Shown here piece by piece: positions 8,092-25,632 of a stretch of DNA of 64,000 nucleotides. Numbering within the stretch: the stretch's first letter is position 1; each line of letters starts with the position of its first letter. Source of the stretch: Bacteriovorax sp. MedPE-SWde (lineage in GTDB: Bacteria; Bdellovibrionota; Bacteriovoracia; Bacteriovoracales; Bacteriovoracaceae); contig MPCU01000012.1 of NCBI GenBank assembly GCA_001874305.1, forward strand, positions 1-64,000. Direction: 5' to 3'. Under the pieces are notes generated by a model. That model ran no database searches. It saw nothing but the letters and a program-made list of their open reading frames with translations, and had not been told where the DNA came from. Made by a program: the position numbers and the translations under genes.

Positions 8092-8276
8092 AGAAGATAA
8101 AGTACCTGATTTAGAACGATAGTGTAATAGATTAGTTGTGCGCCAAGCGTTAGTCGCATTTTTTACACTTCTTTGACCTTTATATTGGTGACGTTACTTG
8201 AGCAAATATGTAAAATATTCGCGAATGGATTCGTTTAAGAGTTGTACTAACTTTACCAATCACAAAGGATGGGATT

Positions 8277-9437: not shown

Positions 9438-9445
9438 GGGGTTTT

Positions 9446-10897: not shown

Positions 10898-11630
10898 TTT
10901 TCAAGATCAAGTTGCCATTGTTACTGGTGGAACGAGAGGGATCGGTAGAGGTATCACTGAATCATTCTTAAAGGCCGGTGCACAAGTTGTCGCAACATAT
11001 GCGTCTAATGATGATGCTGCTAATAAGTTTAAAGATGAATTAGGTGAACTAGGTAAAGGTCTTTACTTAAGAAAGTTTGATGTATCCAATTCTCAAGAAG
11101 TGGAATCTTTTTGGAATGAAATAACATCATCATTTGAAAAAATTGATATTCTTATAAATAACTCAGGAATAAGAAAGGACAACTTAACTCCTGTTATGCC
11201 AGATGAGGATTGGACGAGAGTACTTGATATCAATCTATCAGGTTCTTTTTATATGACTAAGAGGGCAGTAAATCACTTCTTAGGTAATCGTTACGGAAGA
11301 ATTGTTAATATGAGCTCTGTTGGTGGGTCTCTTGGGCTTCCTGGACAGGCCAACTATGCTGCTTCAAAAGCAGGTCAAGTTGCGATGAGTAAGACTGTAT
11401 CTAAGGAAGTTGGTAAAAAAGGAATTACTATAAATAATGTATGCCCTGGTTTTATCGAGACTGAGTTGATTGCAGATCTTCCTGCTGAACAAGTTAAAGA
11501 GTATAAGAAACAAGTTCCAATGAGAAGATTTGGGAAAGTTGAAGAAGTTGCACACGCTGTTATGTTCCTATCTAGTAAAGAGGCGGGATATATTACAGGT
11601 GCAAGTTTAGAAGTTACTGGTGGTCTATAA
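10890..11630 (+). CDS. fabG: 3-oxoacyl-ACP reductase (FabG-like SDR)
   Basis: 246 residues from the ATG at 10890, which has GAAGAGG seven bases upstream; an in-frame GTG at 10875 is less well placed. It is a classical short-chain dehydrogenase: TGGTRGIGRGITE cofactor loop, NNSGI, active-site Ser in NMSSVGG, YAASK catalytic Tyr/Lys, and the FabG-like tail YITGASLEVTGGL. It reduces 3-oxoacyl-ACP with NADPH in type II fatty-acid synthesis. The start overlaps the oxidoreductase by 8 bases, and the stop overlaps fabZ by one. The context suggests a pathway-specific copy rather than the housekeeping FabG. Confidence 0.9.
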   Translation: MFNFQDQVAIVTGGTRGIGRGITESFLKAGAQVVATYASNDDAANKFKDELGELGKGLYLRKFDVSNSQEVESFWNEITSSFEKIDILINNSGIRKDNLTPVMPDEDWTRVLDINLSGSFYMTKRAVNHFLGNRYGRIVNMSSVGGSLGLPGQANYAASKAGQVAMSKTVSKEVGKKGITINNVCPGFIETELIADLPAEQVKEYKKQVPMRRFGKVEEVAHAVMFLSSKEAGYITGASLEVTGGL

Positions 11631-12043
11631 TGTCTGAAGTTATAACAGATCTTATTCCACAACGTGCACCATTTCTCTTTGTCGATAAGATCATTGAAAG
11701 AGGTGATGCTAAGATTGTTACTAGTTACAATGTAACAGGTGAAGAAGAATTTTTTAAGGGTCATTTTCCTGGAAATCCAATAATGCCAGGAGTAATCCTA
11801 CAAGAGGCCCTATTTCAAACAGGTGCCTGTCTAATGGCCAAGATCGGTAATTCTGGGCTAGGCGTTGTAACTAAAGTTGGTAATGCTAGATTTAAAAATC
11901 TTGTTAGACCTGGAGACGAGCTTGTGATGGAAGTTGAGCTTGTCGAAAATATAGGAAATGCTTACTACTTTAAGGGTAAGACACGAGTAAGTGGAAAGAT
12001 GGCCGTGGCCATTGAATTTACTTGTGCAAAAATTGAGGAATAA
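11630..12043 (+). CDS. fabZ: 3-hydroxyacyl-ACP dehydratase (FabZ)
   Basis: 137 residues, a single hotdog domain of usual FabZ length. The active-site segment is GHFPGNPIMPGVILQEA, with catalytic His45 and Glu59 in place. It dehydrates 3-hydroxyacyl-ACP to trans-2-enoyl-ACP. It starts in a TAATG overlap with fabG and ends three bases before fabI, so fabG, fabZ and fabI give a complete reduction-dehydration-reduction set. The ketosynthase and carrier protein are absent from this operon but present in the ole operon ten kilobases away. Confidence 0.92.
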   Translation: MSEVITDLIPQRAPFLFVDKIIERGDAKIVTSYNVTGEEEFFKGHFPGNPIMPGVILQEALFQTGACLMAKIGNSGLGVVTKVGNARFKNLVRPGDELVMEVELVENIGNAYYFKGKTRVSGKMAVAIEFTCAKIEE

Positions 12044-12046
12044 AAA

Positions 12047-12835
12047 ATGTCTTTTTTAGCTGTTGATTCAAAAACTTTTCTAATTGCAGGTGTTTCTAAT
12101 AGAAAGAGTGTTGCTTATTTTAGTGCTAAAACTTTAAAAGAAGAAGGTGCTAATCTTATCTTTACTGTCCAATCAGAAGATCATAAGGCCCGTGTTAATA
12201 AACTCTTTCCTGACTGTGATGTTTATATCTTAGATGTTGAGTCAGAAGCAGCTATTAAAGAGTTTGGAAGTACTCTGTGTGATAATCAAGTTAAGCTTGA
12301 TGGCTTTCTTCATTCAATTGCATTTGCAAACTTAAGTGAGCCAAAACCATTTCATGAAACAACTTGGACAGACTTTCAACAGGCAACTCAGATTTCGTCT
12401 TTCTCTCTAGTACAAATGAGTAATGCAATAAAAGAATGTTTTAATGTAGATGCAGGAGTTGTGACAATTTCTATTTCTGATACTAAGGCCACAAGTTACG
12501 GGTATATGGGACCCGTTAAATCTATGCTTGATACAACGACTGCTTACTTGGCGAAAAGTTTTTCTGAGTTTTCTAGAGTGAGATTTAATGCTGTTTGTTC
12601 TGGTCCTCTAAAGACCTCGGCATCTGCAGGTATACCTGGATATATTAATAATTACCTCTTTGCTGAAAAGTTAACAATGAGAAAAGAAGCTCTTGCGACA
12701 CAAGAGGTTGCTGATACTGTTGTTTACTTACTGAGTCCTAGGTCTTCCGGGATAAATGCGACGGGGATTCTTGTTGATGCAGGAATGAGATCTAATCACT
12801 TTGATCAAGATGTCGTAAACAAAGTGGCGGAATAA
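12047..12835 (+). CDS. fabI: enoyl-ACP reductase (FabI type)
   Basis: 262 residues, an SDR-fold enoyl reductase. FabI features include the N-terminal FLIAGVSNRKSVAYFSAKTL cofactor region and the Y-x6-K active site YGYMGPVK. The C-terminal segment GILVDAGMRSNHF is in the usual place. It performs the last step of each elongation round, reducing enoyl-ACP with NAD(P)H. It is last in the operon and is followed by a GC-rich hairpin. If chain unsaturation is kept in the product, this enzyme would have to act selectively; that is speculation. Confidence 0.88.
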   Translation: MSFLAVDSKTFLIAGVSNRKSVAYFSAKTLKEEGANLIFTVQSEDHKARVNKLFPDCDVYILDVESEAAIKEFGSTLCDNQVKLDGFLHSIAFANLSEPKPFHETTWTDFQQATQISSFSLVQMSNAIKECFNVDAGVVTISISDTKATSYGYMGPVKSMLDTTTAYLAKSFSEFSRVRFNAVCSGPLKTSASAGIPGYINNYLFAEKLTMRKEALATQEVADTVVYLLSPRSSGINATGILVDAGMRSNHFDQDVVNKVAE

Positions 12836-12845
12836 ATCCGCCACT
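12823..12845. terminator. hairpin between fabI and the peroxiredoxin gene
   Basis: AGTGGCGG and CCGCCACT form a perfect 8-bp GC-rich stem with a 7-base loop containing the fabI stop. It is followed by AGTATTTT. It sits between convergent genes and could end transcripts from both sides; the T-run is weak. Confidence 0.5.
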
Positions 12846-12851
12846 AGTATT

Positions 12852-13586
12852 TTACATATTAAAGTATTTTTCTAAATCATCTCTTCCACCAATCTGTTTA
12901 CCATCGATGAAAATTTGAGGAACTTTATGTGCTCCAGTTACAGCAAATAAGGCCTGATTACTTGCATCTCTGCCAAGAACGATTTCGTTGTATACATATC
13001 CTTTCTCCTTTAATATTTCTTTTGCTCTTAAACAATGTGGACACCCTGGTCTTGTAAATAGAGATACTGACTCTGGTGCTTTAGCTTCTGGGTTTAAGTA
13101 GTTAAGCATAGTGTCTGCGTCACTAACTTCAAATGGATCACCAGGCTTATCTGGCTCAATGAATGCTTTTTCAACAACTCCATCATTAACTACCATTGAG
13201 TATCTCCATGTTCTCTTTCCAAAACCTAGATCACTCTTATCTACAAGAAGTCCAATCCCTTGTGTGAAATCACCATTTCCATCTGGAAGTACTTTAATAT
13301 TTTGCGCCTCTTGGTCTTTTGACCATGCATCCATAACAAATGGGTCATTTACTGATAGAACATAAATATCATCAACACCTTCAGACTTCATAACGTTTGC
13401 AAGCTCATTATATCTCGGTAAATGTGTACTTGAGCAAGTTGGAGTGTAAGCTCCAGGTAATGCAAAAATAACAACTTTCTTACCTGCAAATACTTCTTTA
13501 TTTGTTAAAGTAATTAGTGATCCGTCTTTAATGATCTTAAAGTCGTTTGTTGGAACTTTCTTTCCTTCAATATTTTCAAAACTCAT
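12852..13586 (-). CDS. peroxiredoxin-glutaredoxin fusion (Prx5/Grx hybrid)
   Basis: 244 residues from the ATG at 13586, which has GGAGG at proper spacing; an in-frame ATG four codons earlier lies inside that ribosome site. The N-terminal ~165 residues are a Prx5-type peroxiredoxin with the peroxidatic Cys in PGAYTPTCSSTHLPRYNELA. The C-terminal ~75 residues are a glutaredoxin with CPHC in TRPGCPHCLRA and the glutathione-site VPQIFIDGKQIGG. Such fusions reduce hydroperoxides using glutathione directly. It is monocistronic. Confidence 0.93.
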   Translation of the reverse strand: MSFENIEGKKVPTNDFKIIKDGSLITLTNKEVFAGKKVVIFALPGAYTPTCSSTHLPRYNELANVMKSEGVDDIYVLSVNDPFVMDAWSKDQEAQNIKVLPDGNGDFTQGIGLLVDKSDLGFGKRTWRYSMVVNDGVVEKAFIEPDKPGDPFEVSDADTMLNYLNPEAKAPESVSLFTRPGCPHCLRAKEILKEKGYVYNEIVLGRDASNQALFAVTGAHKVPQIFIDGKQIGGRDDLEKYFNM

Positions 13587-13718
13587 TTTAACCTCCATAG
13601 TTAATTTTAGAGTGTTTCTTATTTCTTGTATTGATTATCGTATAAAAAGCAGCATAGTTGAAATCAATTAAATAAATCAGCCGATAGGTTATATCTAATG
13701 ATATTTTGACCTAATATA

Positions 13719-13848
13719 TCGGAAATAGGAGTGCGAGATCCGTGTTTAAGGGTGTTCTTTGTGTTTGTCGACAAGATAAGTATAATTTGTCTCTAGGAAT
13801 GAGAAGTTACCCTTGCTGCACGTTGGATCTCAAGTAATTTCATCCCGA
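13719..13848 (+). promoter_or_regulatory. nested inverted repeats, probable structured leader or small RNA
   Basis: Successive complementary arms nest around one axis. TCGG 13719-13722 pairs with CCGA 13845-13848. AAAT 13723-13726 pairs with ATTT 13837-13840, and GAGATCC 13735-13741 with GGATCTC 13825-13831. GTG 13742-13744 pairs with CAC 13819-13821, and AAGGGT 13748-13753 with ACCCTT 13809-13814. A terminal GACAA/TTGTC hairpin lies in the central loop. It ends 27 bases before the ATG at 13876, so it is either a structured 5' leader or a separate small RNA. I do not recognise a known riboswitch or 6S core. Confidence 0.5.
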
Positions 13849-13875
13849 GTCATTTTATGATTTTTGGGGGTGGTA

Positions 13876-15960
13876 ATGAGAGTCTTAAACGTATTTATTG
13901 AAGTTCTCGCATTCACATTTTTATTTTCATCTAGTCCTGTTTTTGCAGGAGAATTCTCTACATTTGAAAAGGGCGCTGCCTTTGGAAATGTCGCAAATGG
14001 CACTGAAGCATTGGATCCTAGTGATATCCGAAATTTTTCTAATATCTATGGCCAAATACTAAGCTCGTATAACTCAACCTACGATTCTATTGGAAGCCGT
14101 CTTGCTAAAGATGCTGCTAATGGATTCTTTGGTGGAATAAATATGATTGGATGGCGCCATGCCAATGAGTTTTCAAACTTTAAAGTTTCTTTTAATCGCT
14201 CAATTGCCCCAAGTTTATTTCAAGAGGATAAGTTTATTGTTTCTGATGAGATGATCGTTGAAATTGATGCTTCTAAGTTCTTAAAGAAAATGGCGGATGA
14301 GGATGTTATCAATATTTCTGATCAAAACCTTGCGGCCTTTGCTGGCCTCGCATTCAAGAGGACTATGAGGTTTAACCACTTTGCTTCGAGTGTAGAAGAT
14401 GGTCTTCAGACAAATTTTGATAAATTATTCTTTATGTTCAAATACTTTAATGGTGATAAATTCCATAAATTGTCACCATATGACTTTCTTATAAAAGAAG
14501 ATAGGTTTACTGTTAATGCAGGAGCTATGGCAACCGTGCCTATTTATACTTATGGTGCAATTGGTGCTGGTGTTCTCTATAAATATGAAAAGAAATCAAA
14601 AGTTTCTATCCAAAAGATTGGCCCACTGGATGAAGCTGAGGAAAATGAAAATATCCGATTAACTGTTGAAGATACCAGAGGGACATCAGCAGGTGCAAAT
14701 GTAACATTAGTTGTAGATTTTTTTAAATTACTTCAAATGACACTGTTAAGTTATGATTTTGAATATACTTACTCTAAGACTTATAAGACATACTTATCTT
14801 TGTATGATGAGGACTTAAGAAATATTGATAAAATGTCTAAGGTTAAAAATTTATTAAGGTTTAAGTCTTTTGATCCTGTTATTTTTGCAAATAATATTAA
14901 ATCTAAAGAATTAAGACAGAAAGAAATCCAAAAATCTCGCTATCTTGCTTTTATATTTGGTGGTGTAAAAAACTCTCAGACTGAATATACTGAAATTGTA
15001 AAAGATGGGAAATTAAGGAAGTTCTTTACACATAATTATGAAAAGCTTCGCTATAGAGAAAACTTCTTTTCTAAGATACTTACTTCCATTCTAGGTAAGC
15101 TTATTGGCTATGATCAACTTGCAGCTAGAACCGAGGTTAATTCTAAAGCAGTTGAAATTAGTTATGAAGCCGACCTTGATCTTTTAAAGTCAAAAAGAGA
15201 TTACAATATATTCAATAAGAATGTATTTACAATGGGGTTTGAGAGTAAGATTAGAGTTAATCAAAAAACCAGGTTAAATGCTAAGAAAATTGAATCAAAA
15301 ATGAGACAGGCGATTGCTCAAAGAAGTAATAGCTATTCTAAGTTCAAGATGGCCTTTGATACAACAAATATATCTGCTCCATCCGAATTTACTTCGCAAA
15401 TTATGCTTGATAATTCTAATGTACAAAGGTTCATGAAGCTTTCTGCCTCTAGTGTTTTTTCTAAGTTCAAGTCAGTTTGTCGTGGAAAATCTAGGGGACT
15501 CTTTGGAAAGCTGAGGTCTTTATTTAGTTCTTGTCGTAGAAGATTATATGGAAACTATAATTCATTTCTTAAGGAGTGGACGACTACAAATTACGATGGA
15601 AATGTGTATAAGAAATGTAAGAGAAAGTATCGTTGGAGATACTTATTTAGAAGATCTAAAAGAACAGCAATGATTCAAAAATGTATGGAGATTTCTTATA
15701 AGAAGAAGCGTAATATTCAAATGCTAGAACTTCCTCTATGGAAATTCAAAGATGTTGCAAATAATATGAATAACTATATTGTTGATGTAAGAGATTTAAA
15801 TTACTTCTTTGGGTCATTTAGCAATAAAGGAAGCTTTAGTGCTATGTTAAATGGAAACACTCCATATAAGTCATACTATTCAGAAGGTAGTGATAAGCAA
15901 AATATTCTTACACAGTTCAAGGTGAACAATCAACTGCGCTCACCAGCAAGTTTAAAATAA
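13876..15960 (+). CDS. large secreted protein of unknown function (four-Cys family)
   Basis: 694 residues from the ATG at 13876, preceded by GGGGGTGG; the in-frame TTG at 13864 is less likely. A signal peptide (about 1-24, ending VFAGE) is followed by a long region with amphipathic strands. Four cysteines lie at residues 535, 553, 581 and 603 in a very Lys/Arg-rich segment (SSCRRRLYGN, YKKCKRKYRW, IQKCMEISYKKK). A ~90-residue tail follows. The same cysteine arrangement closes the 1028-residue protein at 26142. No family is recognised. The last 9 bases overlap the convergent receiver gene. Confidence 0.75.
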   Translation: MRVLNVFIEVLAFTFLFSSSPVFAGEFSTFEKGAAFGNVANGTEALDPSDIRNFSNIYGQILSSYNSTYDSIGSRLAKDAANGFFGGINMIGWRHANEFSNFKVSFNRSIAPSLFQEDKFIVSDEMIVEIDASKFLKKMADEDVINISDQNLAAFAGLAFKRTMRFNHFASSVEDGLQTNFDKLFFMFKYFNGDKFHKLSPYDFLIKEDRFTVNAGAMATVPIYTYGAIGAGVLYKYEKKSKVSIQKIGPLDEAEENENIRLTVEDTRGTSAGANVTLVVDFFKLLQMTLLSYDFEYTYSKTYKTYLSLYDEDLRNIDKMSKVKNLLRFKSFDPVIFANNIKSKELRQKEIQKSRYLAFIFGGVKNSQTEYTEIVKDGKLRKFFTHNYEKLRYRENFFSKILTSILGKLIGYDQLAARTEVNSKAVEISYEADLDLLKSKRDYNIFNKNVFTMGFESKIRVNQKTRLNAKKIESKMRQAIAQRSNSYSKFKMAFDTTNISAPSEFTSQIMLDNSNVQRFMKLSASSVFSKFKSVCRGKSRGLFGKLRSLFSSCRRRLYGNYNSFLKEWTTTNYDGNVYKKCKRKYRWRYLFRRSKRTAMIQKCMEISYKKKRNIQMLELPLWKFKDVANNMNNYIVDVRDLNYFFGSFSNKGSFSAMLNGNTPYKSYYSEGSDKQNILTQFKVNNQLRSPASLK

Positions 15961-16320
15961 CTCTTCGAGTGCTTCCTTAATATTGGAAATACTAAATGGT
16001 TTATTTAGTAAATAATCTACATTAAGGAAGTATTCATGTTCGTCGACTAAGCTTAGTAGGCTCATTGTTTGACCAGATGAAAAAATGATTTTGAAGTCTT
16101 TAAGTTTATCAGTATAGATTGTATCGAGTAACTCTTCACCAGACATAACTGGCATGGAGTTGTCTAATAGCAGAAGATCAATATCTTTAACCTTTATCAA
16201 CTTTAATGCTTCTTCACCATTTTTTGCAGTAAAGCATTTATAGTCTAATGATTCAAAAATCATTGTTAAAATATCTATAATTTCACTCTCGTCATCGACG
16301 AGTAGAACTTTCTTACTCAA
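15952..16320 (-). CDS. CheY-like response regulator receiver
   Basis: 122 residues, a lone receiver domain. The acidic pocket is Asp9/Asp10, the phosphoacceptor Asp53 (LLLLDNSMPVMSG), the switch Ser is at 81-82 and the conserved Lys at 107 (LLNKPFS). It has no output domain. The start is a TTG at 16320 with GAGG six bases upstream, inside the last codons of oleD and only 3 bases past its stop, so it is the last gene of the ole operon. A partner kinase is not adjacent; the orphan histidine kinase at 45342 is one candidate, without direct evidence. Confidence 0.88.
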   Translation of the reverse strand: MSKKVLLVDDESEIIDILTMIFESLDYKCFTAKNGEEALKLIKVKDIDLLLLDNSMPVMSGEELLDTIYTDKLKDFKIIFSSGQTMSLLSLVDEHEYFLNVDYLLNKPFSISNIKEALEELF

Positions 16321-16323
16321 AAA

Positions 16324-17298
16324 TTACCTCAATCTTCGTAATGATTCTTCAATTGTAACCTTTGGTTCATGGCCAAAGTCATTCTTTGCATTCTCGTGAC
16401 TAAAGTAGTGAGATGTTCCAAGTTGGAGTGCCACAAACTTTGTCATAGGAGGATGAATATTGAATATTTTAAACAAGTTTAGAAAAAATTCAATACATGA
16501 ACCTATTTTGTAGGCCTTAGCAACACTTATGCTCTTTTTAACTGGCGGTAAACCTTTGCACTCAAGTATTTGATCAATAAAGTCCCATAGATTTACTGGG
16601 TGCTCTTGACCTATAAAGTATGCCTTTCCTGAGTTTTTTGCTTCTGCTATTAACTCATTAAAGGCATCAACATGTGCTTTAGCTGCATTCTCTACATAAA
16701 TTATATCAACAAGGTTAGTTCTGTCTCCAATTGCCTTGAGCTTTCCTTTGGCCTGTGCAGCTACAAGTCTTGGAATAATATTCTTGTCCCTCTCTCCGTA
16801 TATAAGGTGAGGTCTAATAGAAGTCACTTTGAATTTGTCAGAGTTAAGACCCAGAACATATTCTTCTGCTAACGCCTTAGATTTTGCGTATAAGCTAATA
16901 TACTTCTTTGGATAGGGGATTGTCTCATCACCTTTAATAATCTCTTCTGTTCCAAATACAACGCTTGGAGTACTTGTATAGACGAAAGTTTTAATTCCTT
17001 TATCTATACAGGCATCTGCTAAGTTCTTCGTACCAAGGTAGTTAATTGAGTAAAAGTCTTCCCACTTTCCCCACATTCCAACTTTACTTGCTACATGAAA
17101 AACAGCTTCTATTCCTTCAAGTGCTTTAACGATAGAATCTTTATCTGCAAGGTTTCCCGTTCTTGTTGGGATATTGAGTTGTTCTAGTTCGTCAGTGTGG
17201 GAGCGAGAAAAGTTGATTACATTATGGCCTTGGTCTTTGAGTTCTTTAGCAATATGTAGGCCTAGGAATCCAGAAGCTCCTGTGATGAGAATATTCAC
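16324..17298 (-). CDS. oleD: OleD, 2-alkyl-3-ketoacid reductase
   Basis: 324 residues, an extended SDR of the 3-beta-HSD type. The cofactor loop is GASGFLGLHIAKEL, the active-site Ser/Thr lies in VYTSTPSVVFG and the Tyr/Lys pair in YAKSKALAEEY. In olefin biosynthesis OleD reduces the 2-alkyl-3-ketoacid made by OleA to the 3-hydroxyacid using NADPH. It starts in an ATGA overlap with oleC, and the A-B-C-D order of its neighbours supports the assignment. Taken alone it could be any NAD-dependent epimerase/dehydratase. Confidence 0.88.
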   Translation of the reverse strand: MNILITGASGFLGLHIAKELKDQGHNVINFSRSHTDELEQLNIPTRTGNLADKDSIVKALEGIEAVFHVASKVGMWGKWEDFYSINYLGTKNLADACIDKGIKTFVYTSTPSVVFGTEEIIKGDETIPYPKKYISLYAKSKALAEEYVLGLNSDKFKVTSIRPHLIYGERDKNIIPRLVAAQAKGKLKAIGDRTNLVDIIYVENAAKAHVDAFNELIAEAKNSGKAYFIGQEHPVNLWDFIDQILECKGLPPVKKSISVAKAYKIGSCIEFFLNLFKIFNIHPPMTKFVALQLGTSHYFSHENAKNDFGHEPKVTIEESLRRLR

Positions 17299-18944
17299 TG
17301 TATGATTCCCTTAGTTATATCTTCTCCAAGCTTCTTACGATCGATTTTAATATTGTGTCTAATGTCGACGGGGAAAGAGTCTGAAAAGAAGAAATGCTCT
17401 ATGTCGCTTGTATGTTCATGCTGACTTCCAAGACCTTGAAGTTCGGCAATTACTTTATCTTTATCTATCTCTTTTGATTTAAAATTCTCTTTTGGCTCGA
17501 TAACTACGGCCGCATTAAGTTGTCCTGCTTTTTCATATCTTACTAGTGCAGAACGTTTTACAAAGGGATGTTCATTATAAATTGCTTCACATGAAATAGA
17601 GTATTTTACTTCTTTAGTTAATTCGATACGATGAACTTTTCTTCCATAGAACCAAATATTTCCAGAAGTATCTATTCTCCCCAGATCTCCCATCCTATGC
17701 CAGTAGCTATCACCATCTTTAATTTTGGCGGCCGCTGTTTTGTCAGGAAGGTTGAGATACATAGGAGTTGTAATATCGCCTTTTACAATTATTTCACCAA
17801 CAGCATCAGTATCTAAGATTTTAACATCTTCTATTGTGGCGATATCTTGGTCGTGTGCCTCAATTATTTTGACCTCTAGACCAGGTGCCGGTTGACCTAT
17901 ACATGTTCCGCCACCCTTGGCCGATATTTGAACCTTATCGCTTTTTGGATCTAAGATTTCTTTTCCAGAAATACATGCTACAGGAAGTGCCTCAGTCGCA
18001 CCGTAGGGAGTATATGTGGTTCCATTTGGTAGAATCTTTTGAAAGTTTTCATGAAGCTCAACTCGAACAGGTGCTCCAAACATAACTACATACTTAACTG
18101 AGTCAAGTTGTATACTTTGCTTTATGCAGTAGTCAGCAACACGCTCCCATATCGCAGGAGAGCCAGCAACGAAAGTCGCTCTATTATCTTTTATATTAGC
18201 AACCAGTGACTGTGGATCACATGTTGCTGGTTTAGATGGGTTCATATCAGGGATACAACTTGTCATTCCCATAGACATCGTAAAAAACGAAAAGAGTGGA
18301 AATCCTGGTATATCAATATCACTGTCATTCAGAGTGAATATCTCTTGCAGGACATCTGTTTGATTATTAAAAATTCTATGTGTGTAAACTACACCCTTTG
18401 GCCTACCTGTTCCACCTGAAGTGAAAAGGATCGCGGCCATATCATCAGGGGACTTTTGCTTTGTCTCGTAATCTTTCCAAGGTCCTTTTTTTAGGGCCTT
18501 TACGGAGTGAAGACCTGGCCAGAGTTTTGGTCCGGTTGTGATAAATGTTTTGATACTTTTAAAAGCAGAGCGGTAGAACATTCTAATAATATGTACTTCA
18601 GGTACTGCTATTAGTGCATCTGGTTGTGCGCTTTCAATCGCCTTGAGAAGATTCTTCTTTCCCATTCCTGGATCTATGAGAATAGGAGTGGCCCCCATCT
18701 TAAAAAGAGCAAATGTAAGAGCTGGGAAGTCTAGTGAAGGACGAACAAAGAGTAGTACCTTGTCGCCTTCTTTTATTCCCTTTGCTTCTAAAGAGTTTGC
18801 GTAGTGCGAGCTGAGTCTATTTAGTTCACTAAAGCTAAGCTTCTCATAGAGATAGTTGTAACTTCCAATTTTCTTTGGAAATCTCACTGCATCTTGATTT
18901 GGCCTTACTTTTGCTTGGTTTTCAATACGTGCTGCTATATTCAT
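17295..18944 (-). CDS. oleC: OleC, beta-lactone synthetase (AMP-binding superfamily)
   Basis: 549 residues of the acyl-adenylating ANL superfamily. The P-loop-like motif is LFTSGGTGRPKGVVYTHR, with TPYGATEALPVA and the hinge region GRIDTSGNIWFYGRKVHRIEL. In the Ole pathway this enzyme uses ATP to turn the 2-alkyl-3-hydroxyacid into a beta-lactone. It overlaps oleB by 23 bases and oleD by 4, so translation is likely coupled along the operon. In some bacteria oleB and oleC are fused; here they remain separate. Confidence 0.9.
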   Translation of the reverse strand: MNIAARIENQAKVRPNQDAVRFPKKIGSYNYLYEKLSFSELNRLSSHYANSLEAKGIKEGDKVLLFVRPSLDFPALTFALFKMGATPILIDPGMGKKNLLKAIESAQPDALIAVPEVHIIRMFYRSAFKSIKTFITTGPKLWPGLHSVKALKKGPWKDYETKQKSPDDMAAILFTSGGTGRPKGVVYTHRIFNNQTDVLQEIFTLNDSDIDIPGFPLFSFFTMSMGMTSCIPDMNPSKPATCDPQSLVANIKDNRATFVAGSPAIWERVADYCIKQSIQLDSVKYVVMFGAPVRVELHENFQKILPNGTTYTPYGATEALPVACISGKEILDPKSDKVQISAKGGGTCIGQPAPGLEVKIIEAHDQDIATIEDVKILDTDAVGEIIVKGDITTPMYLNLPDKTAAAKIKDGDSYWHRMGDLGRIDTSGNIWFYGRKVHRIELTKEVKYSISCEAIYNEHPFVKRSALVRYEKAGQLNAAVVIEPKENFKSKEIDKDKVIAELQGLGSQHEHTSDIEHFFFSDSFPVDIRHNIKIDRKKLGEDITKGIIQ

Positions 18945-19800
18945 TGAAGAAGCTTCCTATTTCTCTTATACAATTATCTTTTTCATCTTCCAGTACATAG
19001 TGACCAGCATCTTCATAGACAACATACTTTTCATTTGGAAAGAAGTCCTTCCATCTGTTAAGAAAGCCCATATTAAAGCAGAAGTCTTTTGCACCCCAGA
19101 TAAATAGTTTTGGACACGTCACTTCTTTGAGTGAGTTCTCAATACTATCAAGCTTGTTCCATGATCTGTGATCTGGTTTTAATGGAATGTCTTTTACAAA
19201 TTGTGCAGTGGCAATTCTGTTGTGATAATTATTGTAAGGAAATAAATATCCTTGTTTAACCTCTTTGCTTAGTTTCTTTTCAACCGCCATAAAAGTAGCT
19301 GGCCATGCAAATGCATTAAAGGCCCTTACCATTGGAGCTCCAATAATTGGAAGCTTGCAAAGACCTATTGTGAATGGAATATCTTGTGATTTAAATGCAG
19401 CAGTATTCATAATAGTCATACTCATGACTTTGTCAGGCATTGTCGTCGCAACACCCATTCCTATAGCACCACCCCAGTCATGAACTATTAATGAGAACTT
19501 ATCTAATTTGAGTTCTTTAATTAGCTTTAAAACATTGTTGACATGATTTTCAAGTGTATATTCAAAGTCTTGTGGTTTGTCTGATAGTCCACATCCAATA
19601 TGATCAGGAACAATACAGCGGTAGTTCTTTTGTAGGTCTTTAACTACATTTCTATAAAAGAAGGACCATGTAGGATTTCCATGAATCATAATAATAGGGT
19701 GACCTTCACCTTCATCAAGATAGTGAAGTCTTCCATTGTCAGTATTTAAAAAGTTATTTTTAAAAGGATAGTGTTTTTGCCATGAATTCTTCATTACCAT
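18922..19800 (-). CDS. oleB: OleB, alpha/beta-hydrolase (beta-lactone decarboxylase)
   Basis: 292 residues, an alpha/beta-hydrolase of the haloalkane dehalogenase branch. The oxyanion region is MIHGNPTWSFFYRNVV, the nucleophile Asp108 sits in VHDWGGAIGMG, and the catalytic His in DAGHYVLED. OleB decarboxylates the cis-beta-lactone made by OleC to the final cis-alkene. It overlaps oleA by 7 bases. Alone it would be called a dehalogenase; the ole context makes that unlikely. Confidence 0.9.
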   Translation of the reverse strand: MVMKNSWQKHYPFKNNFLNTDNGRLHYLDEGEGHPIIMIHGNPTWSFFYRNVVKDLQKNYRCIVPDHIGCGLSDKPQDFEYTLENHVNNVLKLIKELKLDKFSLIVHDWGGAIGMGVATTMPDKVMSMTIMNTAAFKSQDIPFTIGLCKLPIIGAPMVRAFNAFAWPATFMAVEKKLSKEVKQGYLFPYNNYHNRIATAQFVKDIPLKPDHRSWNKLDSIENSLKEVTCPKLFIWGAKDFCFNMGFLNRWKDFFPNEKYVVYEDAGHYVLEDEKDNCIREIGSFFNEYSSTY

Positions 19801-20825
19801 TCTACTCCGAGTACGATAGAGGATAATCCGCTACCTATTCCTACTAGGACAATCTTTTGTCCCTTCTGTATTCCTTCTCTGTCATTCTTGAGTGCAAGAG
19901 TTACGGGAAGTGCTGCCGAACCTGTATTTCCTAAAAAAGGAAAAGTATCAAATGTCGGTCTTTTGTTTAAGTTTAATTCGCCAAGTACTATTTCTTTATG
20001 GGCCTTTCCTACTTGATGTCCAATAACAAGGTCGATCTCTTTCTCTGTCCAATCGAGTCTTTGCTTGGCCTTCGCCCATGTGTTCTTTGCTAGTTTCTTA
20101 CCATGCTCCAAAAGCTTTTCAGAGTCAGTTTCCATAAATAAGGAATTAGGATCACCATCCCCTTGGCACAATTTATTTGCTGTAGAGTCTGTCATTACTG
20201 CACCAGAGACAAGCTTGTGTCCATTAGGACAAAGGTCTTTATGTGTAAGTACATAAGCAACAGCAGCTGAACCGATAGTTAGATTAGCAAAGTATTTCTT
20301 TATCGATTTACGAGTGATTGTTTCATCTTCATTTAATCGTTTAATAGTTTCCTCTAAAAGTGGTCCACCATTTTCTCCAGAAACAATAAGTGCTTTCTTT
20401 ATTTGACCTGATTCGATCATGTTTGCAGCGACAACCCACGAATTAACCATTCCAAGACAAGCATTTGATAAATCAAATATCGTACATTCATCGTTTAATT
20501 CTAAGTTTCCGTGCACTATTGAAGCAGTCGAAGGCTCAAGGAAATTTCTACAAACAGAGCTGTGGATAAGCAGGTCAATGTCATCTTTATTAACGTTACC
20601 TTTATTAAATAAATCTCTCGCAGCATTAGCTGAAAGATCACTTGGTAGAGTTCCAGATGGCCAAACACCTCTTTCTTTTATACCTGTCATTAGCTCAAGT
20701 CTTCCCTGTGGAAGTTTTAAGCGTTTGTATATAGGGGAGAGTAGTTCTTCCATTTTTTCTGAAGATATTTTTTCTTCAGGTAGATAAAGACCGTAATCTT
20801 CAATGACAACATTATTAAACTTCAT
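19794..20825 (-). CDS. oleA: OleA, head-to-head acyl-CoA condensing thiolase
   Basis: 343 residues of the KAS III/OleA family. The active-site residues fit OleA: Cys123 (LSNACLGMVNS), His270 (IGHQVGKAHKE), Asn300 (FLGNTGSAALP), and Glu97 (FLEPSTAS), 26 residues before the Cys as in characterised OleA. OleA joins two fatty acyl thioesters head to head by non-decarboxylative Claisen condensation, giving a 2-alkyl-3-ketoacid. The preceding oxidoreductase gene ends only one base upstream of the start. It is the committed step of long-chain olefin synthesis. Confidence 0.93.
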   Translation of the reverse strand: MKFNNVVIEDYGLYLPEEKISSEKMEELLSPIYKRLKLPQGRLELMTGIKERGVWPSGTLPSDLSANAARDLFNKGNVNKDDIDLLIHSSVCRNFLEPSTASIVHGNLELNDECTIFDLSNACLGMVNSWVVAANMIESGQIKKALIVSGENGGPLLEETIKRLNEDETITRKSIKKYFANLTIGSAAVAYVLTHKDLCPNGHKLVSGAVMTDSTANKLCQGDGDPNSLFMETDSEKLLEHGKKLAKNTWAKAKQRLDWTEKEIDLVIGHQVGKAHKEIVLGELNLNKRPTFDTFPFLGNTGSAALPVTLALKNDREGIQKGQKIVLVGIGSGLSSIVLGVEW

Positions 20826-20826
20826 A

Positions 20827-22206
20827 TTATTCCATTAGTCCGTGTAGGTTTGCCATTGATATTCCACTTAACATTGCACCTACTATACCGAGAAACCCTT
20901 GATCTGTTCCGCAGATATAGAGTCCATCTATATGTGTTCTACCATCACGTATTTTATCTGTAGATCCATATACTGTGCCTTCAAAGTGACCTGTATATCT
21001 CTCAATTGTTGTTGGAGTGAAAACATCTTTAAAAAGAACATTTGCATCAAAACCTGGAGCAATCCTCTTTATCGTTTCAATTGATTTTTCAAAGAGATCA
21101 TTCTTATTCTCTAAATAGACTTTTCTTTCCAATTCTTTCCATAGCGCGTAGTTGGCCATGTATGTAACTCTTGCTACACCTTCTGTATCGCCGTCATCAT
21201 GTTGAAAATTATTGGGAAAGCATGCTACAGCACTTGAGTGATCAAATAATGTATTAGGCTTCTTATAATCGTATATATCTTTTTCATTGTAGAAAACTAT
21301 CGTATGATCAAAACCAAAGTCTTTTGGTTTCTTGTCTAAACAAGCAATAGATTCACAAAAGCTTAAAGGCCCTACTTTAGGTTCAGGTCTTTCTCCAGTT
21401 GTAACGGCCATTGTTTCGGGGTTACCCATACTAGATATTACTTTATCGCACTCAAGGATAGTACCATCCTTAAGTTCTACTCCAGATATTTTCCCATTTG
21501 AGTGAATGATCTTTGTAACTTCTGATTTAAAACGAAGCTCACCCCCAACTTTTTCATATTTTTCAAGTAGTAGGTTAAGTATTGTCCTAACTCCTCCTGA
21601 AGGTCTACAAAAGCCCTCAAGGTAGATACTCTTAAACATGATAACGAATTGGGAAAAATCCATATCGTTTTCCCAAGCTGATCCATAGATAAGTAGCGGG
21701 CAGAAAATCATTTCTAAAAGTTGACTGTCAGTAATAAACTTCTTCGCGACATCTTTTGCCATAAAGGTTTTATTATCTAATGCAACTTCATTGTATTCTT
21801 CTATATATGTTACGAATCTATTGAAGTTATCAATTTGAAGAGGAAATTTTGTTGCAACTTCTTCTCTTAGAACTTCAAAGTTATTCGTAAACATGAGGCT
21901 TTGGCCTGGAAACTGAATAAGAGAAGACTTCTGCTCACTTAGTTCAAGCGCATCCCATGGTATTCTTAATTGCTTAAGTAGTTTTGTTAGAGGTCTTCCT
22001 CTTGTTCCTCTAGGAACAAAGTTGGTCATTGCATGAAGACCAACATCGAACTTTCTCTTTCCACGTTTGTAGTATGAGTTGAGTCCACCTGTAAGAAAGT
22101 GTTTTTCTAGAATACAAACTTTCTTACCGAACATCGCGAGTCTAATGGCCGCGGCCAGACCTGACATTCCTGCGCCTATGACTATAGTGTCGTACTTTTG
22201 TGACAT
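20827..22206 (-). CDS. CrtI/phytoene-desaturase-like FAD oxidoreductase of the ole operon
   Basis: 459 residues. The N-terminal FAD motif is TIVIGAGMSGLAAAIRLAMFG followed by LEKHFLTGGLNSYYKRG; the C-terminal motif is GLYICGTDQGFLGIVGAMLSG. It belongs to the same family as the protein at 9446-10897. It lies between the acyl carrier protein gene (59 bases upstream) and oleA (1 base downstream). Canonical ole operons do not include such an enzyme, so it probably adjusts chain unsaturation, by desaturation, isomerisation or saturation, before or after condensation; which one cannot be told from sequence. Confidence 0.85.
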   Translation of the reverse strand: MSQKYDTIVIGAGMSGLAAAIRLAMFGKKVCILEKHFLTGGLNSYYKRGKRKFDVGLHAMTNFVPRGTRGRPLTKLLKQLRIPWDALELSEQKSSLIQFPGQSLMFTNNFEVLREEVATKFPLQIDNFNRFVTYIEEYNEVALDNKTFMAKDVAKKFITDSQLLEMIFCPLLIYGSAWENDMDFSQFVIMFKSIYLEGFCRPSGGVRTILNLLLEKYEKVGGELRFKSEVTKIIHSNGKISGVELKDGTILECDKVISSMGNPETMAVTTGERPEPKVGPLSFCESIACLDKKPKDFGFDHTIVFYNEKDIYDYKKPNTLFDHSSAVACFPNNFQHDDGDTEGVARVTYMANYALWKELERKVYLENKNDLFEKSIETIKRIAPGFDANVLFKDVFTPTTIERYTGHFEGTVYGSTDKIRDGRTHIDGLYICGTDQGFLGIVGAMLSGISMANLHGLME

Positions 22207-22265
22207 GATTTGCCTTTAAAAAGATAGGAATCTAAAACTTAGATCCCTATCTATTTATGATATAT

Positions 22266-22511
22266 TTACTGAAATTTTGGAGTTAAGTATTCAACACAGC
22301 TATCCATAGATGCTAGTTGACCATAATCTTCCTGTGGTACTTCAACTTTATGTCTCTTCTTAAGCTCCATTACGATATCAAGGAAGTCCATAGAGTCTAG
22401 GTCTAGTTGATCTCTAAGTGGAGTAGCATCGTTGATTGATGTTACATCGTCATCAACTGCGATATCTGCGATAATGTCTGAAACTGCTTGTCTTACTTCT
22501 TGTGGTGTCAT
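22266..22511 (-). CDS. acyl carrier protein
   Basis: 81 residues, the usual ACP size, acidic and helical. The phosphopantetheine attachment Ser lies in LDLDSMDFLDI, where the usual 'DSL' is DSM. It carries growing acyl chains as thioesters. It lies 9 bases after the ketosynthase gene and before the CrtI-like gene, so it is a dedicated carrier for this operon rather than the housekeeping AcpP, which normally sits beside fabF/fabD. Confidence 0.92.
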   Translation of the reverse strand: MTPQEVRQAVSDIIADIAVDDDVTSINDATPLRDQLDLDSMDFLDIVMELKKRHKVEVPQEDYGQLASMDSCVEYLTPKFQ

Positions 22512-22520
22512 GTTTTCTCC

Positions 22521-23756
22521 TTAATTATATTTTTTTAGAATTAATACTGAGTTAATACCTAGCATTCCAAATGAATTATTTAATATATAGTTAACTTCTT
22601 GTTTCTTTGGTTGATCAAGTACAAGCCCATCAAACGCACACTCTGGGTCGATTTCTTCTATCTTGTGACAAGGGTGAATTAAGTCATCTTGAAAGCTTAA
22701 TAAGTTTCCTGCAAGCTCTAGTGCTCCGGCGGCACCCATAGCGTGACCAATAAGACCTTTTGTACAATTGATATTGATCTCAGGACAATCTTGGAACATT
22801 TTCTTAATTCCTTCCATCTCCTGGATATCTCCCATTTTTGTACCTGTAGCATGAAGGTTTACAATATCAATTTCTTGTTTCGTTATTCCTGCCTTACTTA
22901 TCGCATGCTCCATACACTGGACCTGTCTTTCGGGATTTGGAAGAACAAAATCTGTTGCATCACTATTGATGTGGTGACCAACTATTTCAGCATAGATCTT
23001 TGCTCCACGCTCTAAAGCATCTTCAAGTCTTTCAAGAGTGTAAACACATCCACCTTCTGAAATTACAATACCATTTCTTGTATTATCTAAAGGTCTTGAG
23101 GCCATTGACTGGTCTTCTTTGTTTTCTGCTAATGCACCTTGAGCCTTGAATGAAACATGATTTCCAAAACTATTGGCAGATTCGCTAACGCCCCCTGCAA
23201 GTGCAATATCAACCTCTCCAAGCTGTAGCATTTGCATCGCTTGAATGATTCCCATATTTCCTGCTGCACAAGCAGCTCCAATTGTATAATGAGGTCCTGT
23301 AATTCCGAGGTTAAGTGATACTTCACCGGCCGGGTTATTTGCTACAGTTCTTGGGTTGTGATGATGAGTCCACAGTGAAGCATCTTCATCATTATTCTTA
23401 TAGAATTGGAATAGCTCTTCTTCTGTTTCTACCGGACCATGCTCTGTGATTCCTAAGTAGATTCCAACACGATTCTTATCAAGGTTTTCAAGATTCAGAT
23501 CAGCATCATCAAGTGCCTCTTTAGAACAGTAAACACTGATTCCACCAACTCTGGTACCTCTTTTTCGCATTTTCTTTTTTTGGTGCTTTGTTTCTTCAAA
23601 GTCACATTTTCCAACAGGAATTTTTCCAAGAAAGCGAACATCTTCTTCTGTTATTCCAGATTTTTGCTCGAGTAGAGCGCTTCTGAATTCTTTTATATTA
23701 TTTCCATTTGGTGCTGTTAGACCAACACCTGTGATAACAACTCTTGATAGATTCAT
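22521..23756 (-). CDS. beta-ketoacyl-ACP synthase (FabF-like)
   Basis: 411 residues from the ATG at 23756 (MNLSRVVITGVG), which has AGGAG eight bases upstream and overlaps the regulator stop as ATGA; longer in-frame starts have no such site. It has the full KAS I/II triad: Cys163 (GAACAAGNMG), His302 (LHATGTKMGD) and His338 (KGLIGHAMGAAG), with Lys333. It elongates ACP-bound chains with malonyl-ACP. It is paired with its own ACP, as in aryl-polyene, ladderane-type and other secondary fatty-acid systems. Confidence 0.92.
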   Translation of the reverse strand: MNLSRVVITGVGLTAPNGNNIKEFRSALLEQKSGITEEDVRFLGKIPVGKCDFEETKHQKKKMRKRGTRVGGISVYCSKEALDDADLNLENLDKNRVGIYLGITEHGPVETEEELFQFYKNNDEDASLWTHHHNPRTVANNPAGEVSLNLGITGPHYTIGAACAAGNMGIIQAMQMLQLGEVDIALAGGVSESANSFGNHVSFKAQGALAENKEDQSMASRPLDNTRNGIVISEGGCVYTLERLEDALERGAKIYAEIVGHHINSDATDFVLPNPERQVQCMEHAISKAGITKQEIDIVNLHATGTKMGDIQEMEGIKKMFQDCPEININCTKGLIGHAMGAAGALELAGNLLSFQDDLIHPCHKIEEIDPECAFDGLVLDQPKKQEVNYILNNSFGMLGINSVLILKKYN

Positions 23757-24400
23757 CTGGCTTCTCCTGAGGCATCGGCCCATGCATTTAATTTATCTTT
23801 TAGTTTAGATTTTATTTGGTTCTTTATTTGTGTTTTAGCTTCATTGATATTTGGAATATTTGTTTTAACAAATCCCATAAATTGAGGAAACTTCTCTATA
23901 ACTGGATATGGATTTTTAAACTCTTCACTAACATTAACGATTACATCGCATATTGAGCGTGCAAATTTAACAGTTGATAGGATCGTTGAGAGACGTTGTT
24001 TTCGGACATCATCTTCTACAATAGTCATTGCTGATGCAGTCATTCTTTCAAAGTCTGCAAGGTACTCCATTTCTCTTTTTCTAATTACACTGGCAACGAT
24101 CTTTAGGGCATCATCCTTGGCATAGTGAAGCTTTAGTCTCTTCAGTTCTTTGTGATCTCTACTCTCAATCATTGAATATTGCGCGAGTGTCTTTAAAGAG
24201 AGGGAAACAGCGCTTTGAGAAAGCCCTAGATCTTCTTCTATTTGGTCAGATGTTAATGGCCCCTTTGAAAAACAAAGAAGTCCAAAGACTGCACCATCGA
24301 TCCTCTTAAAACCAACTCTATTAAAGAAGCTTTCAAAGTGTGGAAGGTGGGCCTTGAGTTCATCTTCAATGTGAACCTTTGCTAAAATGTCGTCATTCAT
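23753..24400 (-). CDS. MarR/GbsR-type transcriptional regulator
   Basis: 215 residues from the ATG at 24400; a GTG four codons upstream is also possible. The N-terminal half is a winged helix: GLLCFSKGPLTSDQIEEDLG then LSQSAVSLSLKTLAQYSMIE and the basic wing of the GbsR/MarR group. The C-terminal helices probably dimerise. It is the first gene of the ole operon and overlaps the ketosynthase start by 3 bases. A perfect inverted repeat at 24418-24441 lies 17 bases upstream of its start, a natural autoregulatory operator. The ligand is unknown. Confidence 0.87.
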   Translation of the reverse strand: MNDDILAKVHIEDELKAHLPHFESFFNRVGFKRIDGAVFGLLCFSKGPLTSDQIEEDLGLSQSAVSLSLKTLAQYSMIESRDHKELKRLKLHYAKDDALKIVASVIRKREMEYLADFERMTASAMTIVEDDVRKQRLSTILSTVKFARSICDVIVNVSEEFKNPYPVIEKFPQFMGFVKTNIPNINEAKTQIKNQIKSKLKDKLNAWADASGEAR

Positions 24401-24417
24401 AGTGTGTACCACTTTCT

Positions 24418-24441
24418 AGAATTACAAATCCCCGTAATTCT
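24418..24441. promoter_or_regulatory. probable operator of the ole operon
   Basis: AGAATTAC, 8-base spacer, GTAATTCT: a perfect inverted repeat directly upstream of the operon regulator. A further ATTAC half-site lies at 24448-24452, so half-sites alternate in orientation along the promoter region. It fits a dimeric winged-helix repressor site. Confidence 0.5.
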
Positions 24442-24631
24442 TTAAATATTACAAAAATAAAATATAAGGAATATTAGCTTTCTACCCGTAGGAGATAAAG
24501 ACCTTCGGTGTCATTCTTACAAAAATTTTTAAATGGGGTGCGCTTTGACACCAATATCTACATGTCTGACAGAATGGCTCCAGTTTTCTGTGCGTCATTT
24601 GGACAAAGTGATTCCAAAGACTTAAAAAAAG

Positions 24632-24648
24632 TTGGCACGCTAATTGTA
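24632..24648 (+). promoter_or_regulatory. sigma-54-like -24/-12 promoter
   Basis: TTGGCACGCTAATTGTA matches the sigma-54 consensus TTGGCACG-N4-TTGCW, with GG at 24634-24635 and GT (for GC) at 24646-24647, exactly ten bases between. It would start transcription near 24658 and drive the lipoprotein gene at 24751. An ATGTCA/TGACAT inverted repeat at 24698-24719 lies in the predicted leader. Confidence 0.55.
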
Positions 24649-24750
24649 TAAAGTTTTTACACAAACTACAAAACAAGATGTTTTTAGGTTATAACGCATG
24701 TCACTAGCAAATATGACATATATTTTTGTATTCAAGAGAGAGGGGTTTTC

Positions 24751-25632
24751 ATGAAAGTACAATTAAAAAAAGGTTTAACTAGTTTAGCAGTATTAGCAAC
24801 TGCAGCAACAATTCTTACTTCTTGTGGAGGAAGTGGAGGAAGTGGTGGTAGTTCATCTACTTATGGTAAGTATCAGTCATCATTTATTACAGCAGAAGGT
24901 TTTGTTAATTCATTAAACTCTGTAGATCCAATTTCTAATCCACTTAACTATATTGATAAAGACGAGTATGAAACACTTAGAAATGATGGACGCTGGTTTG
25001 TTTATTATGATGCTGAGTATGATCATGAAGTAGCAGTAGATCTTAACTACCTTAGATCTATTCAATACTGGGATTACTATTCTTCAAATAATAACTTAGC
25101 TAGAGAATTTAGAGATATCCAACTTGACGATGAAATTGATTATGGTGATATCGGAGATCTATACGGTGATTACTATGAGCCAGTAGATGTTGCAGGTTAT
25201 GACTATGTTTTAGATGAATTTATCTATGAAGGTGTTTGGTCTGGTGAGTTATATGAAGACGAAACAGAAACAACAGATACAGGGCTTCTTGCAGCTCAAA
25301 AAGAAGATAACAAGCTATTCGAAAAGGCATCAGCTTACTCTGTAGCTTTCAAGCTTCCAGTTAAAAAAGCACTTGAGCTTGTAACTATGGAAAAAGAAGT
25401 TAAGAGAATGCTTGAGTCAGCTACAGAGGGATCACTTCTTGAAGCAGATCAAAAGGCAATCACTAAAAACATTGAGCATTTCACTGGTAAGACAATGGCC
25501 GAGTTTAACGAAGCTAAAGAAGATGTTTCTAAGAGAGAAGTTCTTATTGAAGAAATTTCTGCTCACATCGGAACTCCAGGAAGTAACCTTGAAAACGTTA
25601 TCCTTCCAGAGCTTTTAAGCATTGACCTATAA
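24751..25632 (+). CDS. acidic lipoprotein of unknown function
   Basis: 293 residues. A lipoprotein signal peptide ends in the lipobox ILTSC with the lipidated Cys25, followed by a flexible GGSGGSGGSSS linker. The middle (~100-170) is rich in Asp, Glu and Tyr (DEIDYGDIGDLYGDYYEP); the C-terminal ~110 residues are helical and charged. GAGGGG lies five bases before the ATG. It is preceded by a sigma-54-like promoter and followed by a strong terminator, so it is monocistronic with its own control. No family is recognised; membrane anchoring is the only safe inference. Confidence 0.85.
   Translation: MKVQLKKGLTSLAVLATAATILTSCGGSGGSGGSSSTYGKYQSSFITAEGFVNSLNSVDPISNPLNYIDKDEYETLRNDGRWFVYYDAEYDHEVAVDLNYLRSIQYWDYYSSNNNLAREFRDIQLDDEIDYGDIGDLYGDYYEPVDVAGYDYVLDEFIYEGVWSGELYEDETETTDTGLLAAQKEDNKLFEKASAYSVAFKLPVKKALELVTMEKEVKRMLESATEGSLLEADQKAITKNIEHFTGKTMAEFNEAKEDVSKREVLIEEISAHIGTPGSNLENVILPELLSIDL

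Follow-up and report, generated by a model that had tools for sequence, protein, structure and literature searches.

Identification of an ole operon with its own fatty acid synthesis genes

From where would an olefin pathway obtain its acyl chains when its genes are accompanied by those for a ketosynthase, an acyl carrier protein and a flavoenzyme of their own? This question is raised by a contig of Bacteriovorax sp. MedPE-SWde (MPCU01000012.1, assembly GCA_001874305.1), of which positions 1 to 64,000, hereafter the window, were analysed. In our reading, to which we assign a probability of roughly 0.7, the locus encodes a dedicated, discrete type II fatty acid elongation cycle that feeds the olefin enzymes OleABCD, and the unsaturation of the chain is changed by two CrtI-family flavoenzymes, CrtI1 and CrtI2. 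The system is an operon in two parts in the window and in one part in some relatives, and the module that accompanies oleABCD is a complete elongation cycle plus the two flavoenzymes. The role predicted for this module, that of a dedicated fatty acid source for OleABCD, is well supported.

In order to assign families, Pfam and NCBIfam scans were carried out and bit scores were compared with the cut-offs of the models. The following nine minus-strand open reading frames (ORFs) at 15952-24412 are separated by short gaps or overlap according to the ORF list of the window:

23753-24412, minus strand: regulator with a helix-turn-helix (HTH), weakly MarR/GbsR/ArsR-like, which opens the minus-strand operon (Pfam HTH_5, 24.3 bits)
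22521-23783, likely start ATG 23756, minus strand: dedicated FabF-like beta-ketoacyl-ACP synthase (ketosynthase, KS; family scan)
22266-22511, minus strand: dedicated acyl carrier protein (ACP) with phosphopantetheine Ser40 (PP-binding, 29 bits)
20827-22206, minus strand: CrtI1, FAD-dependent oxidoreductase of the CrtI/CrtISO/amine-oxidase superfamily (family scans, fold)
19794-20825, minus strand: OleA, head-to-head condensing thiolase (PRK09258, 404.7 bits, cut-off 285)
18922-19800, minus strand: OleB, beta-lactone decarboxylase, a haloalkane-dehalogenase-like alpha/beta hydrolase (family scans)
17295-18944, minus strand: OleC, AMP-binding beta-lactone synthetase (PRK09274, 604.7 bits, cut-off 478)
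16324-17298, minus strand: OleD, 2-alkyl-3-oxoalkanoate reductase of the short-chain dehydrogenase/reductase (SDR) type (NF042422/NF042423, 329-335 bits)
15952-16320, minus strand: single-domain response-regulator receiver (REC), accessory (Pfam Response_reg, 68 bits)

By their coordinates, the KS start ATG 23756 overlaps the stop of the regulator gene by 4 nt (ATGA), and overlaps of 4, 7 and 23 nt are found between oleD and oleC, oleB and oleA, and oleC and oleB, respectively; the stop of CrtI1 is followed, one base on, by the start of OleA. The initial annotation, made from the sequence alone, had described OleA to OleD as recognisable, in order and overlapping, with intact active sites, and the ORF list, the family scans and the alignment of relatives agree with this. 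The best PDB match of OleA is the Xanthomonas enzyme 3row (full length, E 3e-116), and E97, C123, H270 and N300, that is, the equivalent of Glu117 and the Cys/His/Asn residues, are invariant in the relatives aligned. According to a survey of OleA proteins (PMC7064751), the OleA of Halobacteriovorax marinus showed activity when assayed in vivo. In OleB, which is kept in most relatives, D108 and H267 are invariant in 56 aligned sequences; since OleB is present, an olefin rather than a beta-lactone is the expected product. OleC reached 466-482 bits with the olefin beta-lactone synthetase models, which is under their cut-offs; its P-loop is conserved, with Thr in place of the Ser in 4 of 54 aligned sequences. 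The scores of OleD with its specific models are likewise under the cut-off (580), and its S109, Y137 and K141 are invariant in 51 aligned sequences.

A convergent gene set completes a predicted elongation cycle

A second set of genes, overlooked in the initial annotation, starts 3.1 kb beyond the receiver gene and is convergent to the ole operon:

9446-10897, plus strand: CrtI2, second CrtI-family FAD oxidoreductase and first enzyme of the convergent half (family scan, fold)
10875-11630, start probably ATG 10890, plus strand: FabG, dedicated beta-ketoacyl-ACP reductase (ketoreductase, KR; adh_short_C2, 199.9 bits)
11630-12043, plus strand: dedicated FabZ-type dehydratase (DH) with His45/Glu59 (FabA-like, 73.8 bits)
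12047-12835, plus strand: dedicated, divergent FabI-type enoyl reductase (ER) with Tyr151/Lys158 (FabI models, about 140 bits, under their cut-offs)
12823-12845, plus strand: hairpin resembling an intrinsic terminator (9 pairs, 6 G-C; consensus match only), which closes this half

The Ser, Tyr and Lys of FabG are conserved in the relatives aligned, the His and Glu of FabZ are invariant in 27 aligned sequences, and the PDB matches of FabI belong to the FabI family (E 2.5e-45), with the active-site Tyr and Lys conserved. On the minus strand, KS scores 300 bits as a FabF-like enzyme against a cut-off of 494, and its C172, H311, K342 and H347 (Cys163/His302/His338 in the numbering of the initial annotation) are intact, with no exception among the 51 operon KSs aligned; Ser40 of ACP is likewise invariant in 51 of 51. 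Separate KS, ACP, KR, DH and ER with intact catalytic residues are thus all present, as in a discrete type II fatty acid synthase (FAS).

Next, the operon genes were compared with the rest of the genome, since their being the only housekeeping copies would have spoken against a dedicated function. The same enzyme types occur as separate genes on other contigs: KASIII, FabG, ACP and FabF lie together in a housekeeping cluster (C10, L140), another FabZ on C9 has 32% identity to the operon FabZ, and another FabI on C12 about 27-28% to the operon FabI. The operon KS and the housekeeping FabF are 32% identical, and in a tree the operon KSs form their own clade on a long branch, apart from the three housekeeping KSs included. 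A role of the operon genes as housekeeping copies was therefore rejected. In all 51 operon KSs, the gate motif GFGG is changed to GMLG (M407-L408), which is unusual for a FabF-like enzyme; the flanking Asn residues and the equivalent of Asp265 are retained beside it. The housekeeping FabF of the same genome has GFGS, and in FabB and FabF enzymes the conservation of the GFGG gating loop 1 is reported to be high (PMC7138838). Only two ketosynthases, each encoded by a frame some 420 aa long, and a weak match in another frame were found in the genome, among them no multidomain PfaA-like ketosynthase. A Pfa-type synthase of polyunsaturated fatty acids (PUFA) was for this reason rejected as chain source.

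The coupling of a dedicated KS, ACP and CrtI-like enzyme to OleABCD, as initially proposed, is therefore upheld by their distinctness from the housekeeping copies and strengthened by KR, DH, ER and the second CrtI-like enzyme. The related proposal that the operon builds its own chain holds for the elongation cycle. Priming and malonyl loading, in contrast, must be borrowed: neither FabH nor FabD is encoded by the operon ORFs or by those flanking them, FabH-type copies lie elsewhere in the genome, and a phosphopantetheinyl transferase and a thioesterase are likewise missing from the operon. FabD, FabH and phosphopantetheinyl transferase are presumably common to the operon and the housekeeping system.

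Gene order and co-occurrence in relatives

In order to see whether the gene order is conserved, as the initial annotation had asked, 369 genomes of the window's phylum were surveyed. KS-ACP-CrtI-oleABCD proved to be conserved, and the same order was met across dozens of genera, far beyond chance. OleA proper is present in 114 genomes (119 at the E-value used, five being weak FabH-like matches in family f6). CrtI1 was found in 108 and is accompanied by OleA in 107; in the remaining one, G097, the CrtI1 match is partial. In 101 of these 107 genomes CrtI1 lies directly 5' of OleA, with a gap of -5 to 89 bp (median 8). CrtI2, often on a different contig, occurs in 107 genomes, 101 of them in common with CrtI1. 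Both flavoenzymes were found in one family of the phylum only, save for G249 from another family, and OleA, CrtI1 and CrtI2 are jointly absent from several fairly complete genomes of that family (e.g. G055, G086, G093). That the three are kept together and missing together is the principal ground for assigning the module to the olefin pathway. With the window's own phylum as positive control, a CrtI1 profile matched nothing at E 1e-40 in 398 genomes sampled from another phylum, the one to which L025, a metagenome-assembled genome (MAG) of Lysobacterales, belongs.

In L015 (Halobacteriovorax SP2999), L105 and L018, the genes are collinear on one strand in the order KS-ACP-CrtI1-OleABCD-CrtI2-FabG-FabZ-FabI, the run in L018 being seen only for the part on its contig, which starts inside CrtI1. 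In other relatives the plus-strand set is convergent as in the window (many) or lies elsewhere (some). In G249, a contig that breaks off within FabZ carries KS-ACP-CrtI1-CrtI2-FabG-FabZ, and a second contig carries oleABCD; since the module is kept together away from oleABCD, it can be regarded as a unit. In G008 (L117, L118) oleA has left the run KS-ACP-CrtI1-oleBCD; G083 has KS-ACP-CrtI1 separate from oleA. Distance correlations between the operon genes fit plain common descent, with the CrtI2 column contaminated by CrtI1 cross-hits, and were not used as proof.

These data bear on the possibility that olefin synthesis is ordinary here, with OleA using housekeeping acyl-CoA as in Xanthomonas, the FAS genes making another lipid such as a special membrane fatty acid, and clustering reflecting shared regulation only. 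Known OleA enzymes do take acyl-CoA, module and oleA are unlinked in G083 and G249, and genomes of families f4 and f29 (L134-L137) and two gammaproteobacterial MAGs have oleABCD but no module; such module-free oleABCD was met almost solely outside the family bearing CrtI1. However, CrtI1 without oleA was met only as the partial match in G097, presence and absence coincide over the whole survey, and in 101 genomes the distance from CrtI1 to OleA has a median of 8 bp. We therefore regard ordinary synthesis as a rather unlikely explanation and retain the dedicated supply of OleABCD by the module.

A possible second, diverged set was noticed in G115, where one contig (L143 261-4178) encodes an OleA-like (41%) and a CrtI2-like protein, a fatty-acid hydroxylase and an alpha/beta hydrolase, and another (L144 1-3789) a CrtI1-like protein (40%), an ACP-like protein, an SDR and another FAD enzyme.

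The CrtI-family flavoenzymes

A Rossmann motif for FAD is present in both CrtI1 and CrtI2, whose mutual identity was 23% when they were compared by profile. The AlphaFold model of CrtI1 (pLDDT 91.8) has its best fold matches in gamma-carotene desaturase 4rep, 3ka7, CrtI 4dgk and plant phytoene desaturase, that of CrtI2 (pLDDT 84.8) in 4rep, a nicotine oxidoreductase and 3ka7; Foldseek against PDB thus yielded the general CrtI/amine-oxidase fold only. With the carotenoid enzymes CrtI, CrtISO and CrtD they have fold and FAD motifs in common, but here the genes are linked to FAS and Ole genes. A carotenoid role was rejected, since no phytoene/squalene synthase (PF00494) is present in the window's genome; this family was found in 9 of 38 relatives.

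The CrtI superfamily comprises reductases and isomerases besides desaturases, and the top NCBIfam model for CrtI1 is a carotenoid isomerase, with 130 bits far under its cut-off of 587. Both facts are compatible with CrtI1 and CrtI2 being saturases (RetSat-like reductases) or quality-control enzymes, in which case the module would deliver a saturated chain of defined length and the product would be a mono-olefin. We consider this unlikely, because a dedicated FabI is already there and two different flavoenzymes would be unexpected for one end.

It could also be imagined that the chain is a conjugated polyene, made in the style of aryl polyenes or of a highly reducing type II polyketide synthase (PKS), with CrtI1 and CrtI2 as polyene oxidases or isomerases and the Ole enzymes joining two chains to a pigment-like product. 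Discrete KS, ACP, KR and DH do stand alongside CrtI-family enzymes here, and a CrtI-like gene is found beside type II FAS genes on a Pseudalkalibacillus plasmid as well. Nevertheless, the dedicated enoyl reductase is conserved with its Tyr and Lys intact, and no chain-length-factor-like partner KS is present in the genome, which makes a conjugated chain quite improbable. Conjugated-polyene systems are not known to have a dedicated enoyl reductase. A change of unsaturation on a chain made with the enoyl reductase remains our preferred role for the two flavoenzymes.

The plasmid in question (NZ_CP156675.1, L150 1-10650) carries a type II FAS/PKS-like cluster with genes for KS, two carrier proteins, KASIII, FabG, FabZ, enoyl-CoA hydratase, phosphopantetheinyl transferase and the CrtI-like flavoenzyme, and is another case of such an enzyme beside discrete FAS genes. 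Matches to CrtI1 and CrtI2 in plasmid collections were distant family members only, with some 20-28% identity across most of the protein, and no relatives were found in the viral contigs searched. The Photobacterium match has unrelated genes as its neighbours.

Proposed pathway

That OleA is supplied from this ACP, in which sequence the reactions occur, what CrtI1 and CrtI2 do and that the product is polyunsaturated are our inference from the genes. KS, FabG, FabZ and FabI would lengthen the acyl chain carried by the dedicated ACP, and CrtI1 and CrtI2 would alter its unsaturation at chosen rounds or afterwards, most likely by desaturation or isomerisation, although saturation is possible. The chain would then be handed from the dedicated ACP to OleA. 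From known Ole biochemistry, OleA would condense two chains head to head, OleD would reduce the resulting beta-keto acid, OleC would close the beta-lactone, and OleB would decarboxylate it to a long internal olefin, presumably destined for the membrane. A polyunsaturated product is plausible. Tentatively, and with somewhat less than even confidence, we propose that the discrete type II FAS and the flavoenzymes, acting on ACP-bound chains and with no Pfa synthase, feed OleABCD for the synthesis of a polyene hydrocarbon.

Several points weigh against this pathway. Gene adjacency is no proof that OleA takes acyl-ACP, and the characterised OleA enzymes use acyl-CoA. The scores of OleC and OleD are under the Ole-specific NCBIfam equivalog cut-offs, though residues and context fit. 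The module has no dedicated FabD, FabH or thioesterase, and with an enoyl reductase present it could produce plain saturated chains. The CrtI-family fold is compatible alike with desaturation, isomerisation or reduction.

Comparison with known systems

The operon resembles the OleABCD systems of Xanthomonas, Shewanella and Micrococcus in having OleA, OleB, OleC and OleD in order with intact active sites. According to passages of the OleA survey (mBio 2020, PMC7064751), the oleABCD clusters examined have 0-3 extra genes and their products were inferred from the general fatty acid pool; these passages mention no fatty acid module, whereas our operon is accompanied by a full elongation cycle and by two enzymes of the CrtI family. 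In Shewanella and Photobacterium, a Pfa synthase together with OleABCD yields a C31:9 hydrocarbon, and the ole and pfa operons can adjoin (PMC6463001). As in our locus, a dedicated synthase provides OleA with a special chain, but there it consists of the multidomain, PKS-like PfaA-E and here of single-domain enzymes with flavoenzymes.

The nearest precedent is the type II FAS (FASII) clusters with phytoene-dehydrogenase-like genes described in Kuenenia and Desulfotalea by Rattray et al. 2009 (PMC2649909). Desulfotalea psychrophila contains C31:8 and C31:9 hydrocarbons for which no PKS route was found and a novel PUFA route was proposed (PMC2649909), and the CrtI-like proteins of Kuenenia yield no lycopene (Javidpour et al. 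2016, PMC4790861). By the published descriptions, these Desulfotalea and anammox clusters share with our locus a divergent FabF, ACP, FabG, FabZ and CrtI-like flavoenzymes. They differ in containing radical SAM enzymes and methyltransferases and in having FabI elsewhere, and ole genes are unmentioned by the authors (PMC2649909, PMC4790861); in the window, no radical SAM enzyme was present among the operon ORFs and those scanned between its halves. No earlier description of this operon was found in a literature search that had most subscription papers outside its reach. The OleABCD pathway itself is known, and what is new here is probably an olefin operon travelling with its own type II FAS and two CrtI-family enzymes.

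Accessory and neighbouring genes

The CheY-like receiver had been counted as part of the operon in the initial annotation. However, at this position, 3' of the ole genes, it occurs among the relatives only in L014 and L092, of the same genus; it was rejected as a core part and is a lineage-specific accessory. As for the regulator, an HTH gene does head the operon, but its assignment to MarR/GbsR is weak (26 bits with GbsR-type CudC against a cut-off of 218). It lies 5' of KS in many relatives and was not detected in other loci; for this reason it is not counted as core.

Between the two halves, a peroxiredoxin-glutaredoxin (Prx-Grx) fusion is encoded at 12852-13598, and at the same place in L092, L094 and L107. 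A protein of about 700 aa (13864-15960), whose start resembles a signal peptide and which matches no Pfam family, is convergent to OleD; many genomes have a relative of it (29-63% identity) in the same position, flanked by OleD and the end of FabI, and, as this place is kept, the protein may be linked to the pathway. A DUF7453 protein (8277-9437) precedes CrtI2 with an 8-nt gap, and weak homologues lie at the same place in L127 and L129. An Rfam scan of positions 8000-25000 gave no match.

Implications

If the proposed pathway is true, it would be an olefin pathway owning its fatty acid synthase, in cultivable bacteria. The polyene route tentatively proposed above would, in addition, be a pared-down counterpart, open to cultivation, of what has been postulated for Desulfotalea and anammox bacteria. 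The pathway would also offer a testable setting for the role of the CrtI-like 'phytoene desaturases' in the FAS clusters of anammox bacteria and sulphate reducers, where genetics is lacking. The natural rearrangement in G008 lends itself to testing which parts need co-expression, and the genomes of families f4 and f29 are a natural contrast group for lipids. That co-occurrence is strict throughout a predatory family suggests a hydrocarbon of importance to these cells, probably in their membranes. The probable product of these genes in this family of predatory bacteria is a special hydrocarbon of the membrane, likely unsaturated and made by an undescribed route.

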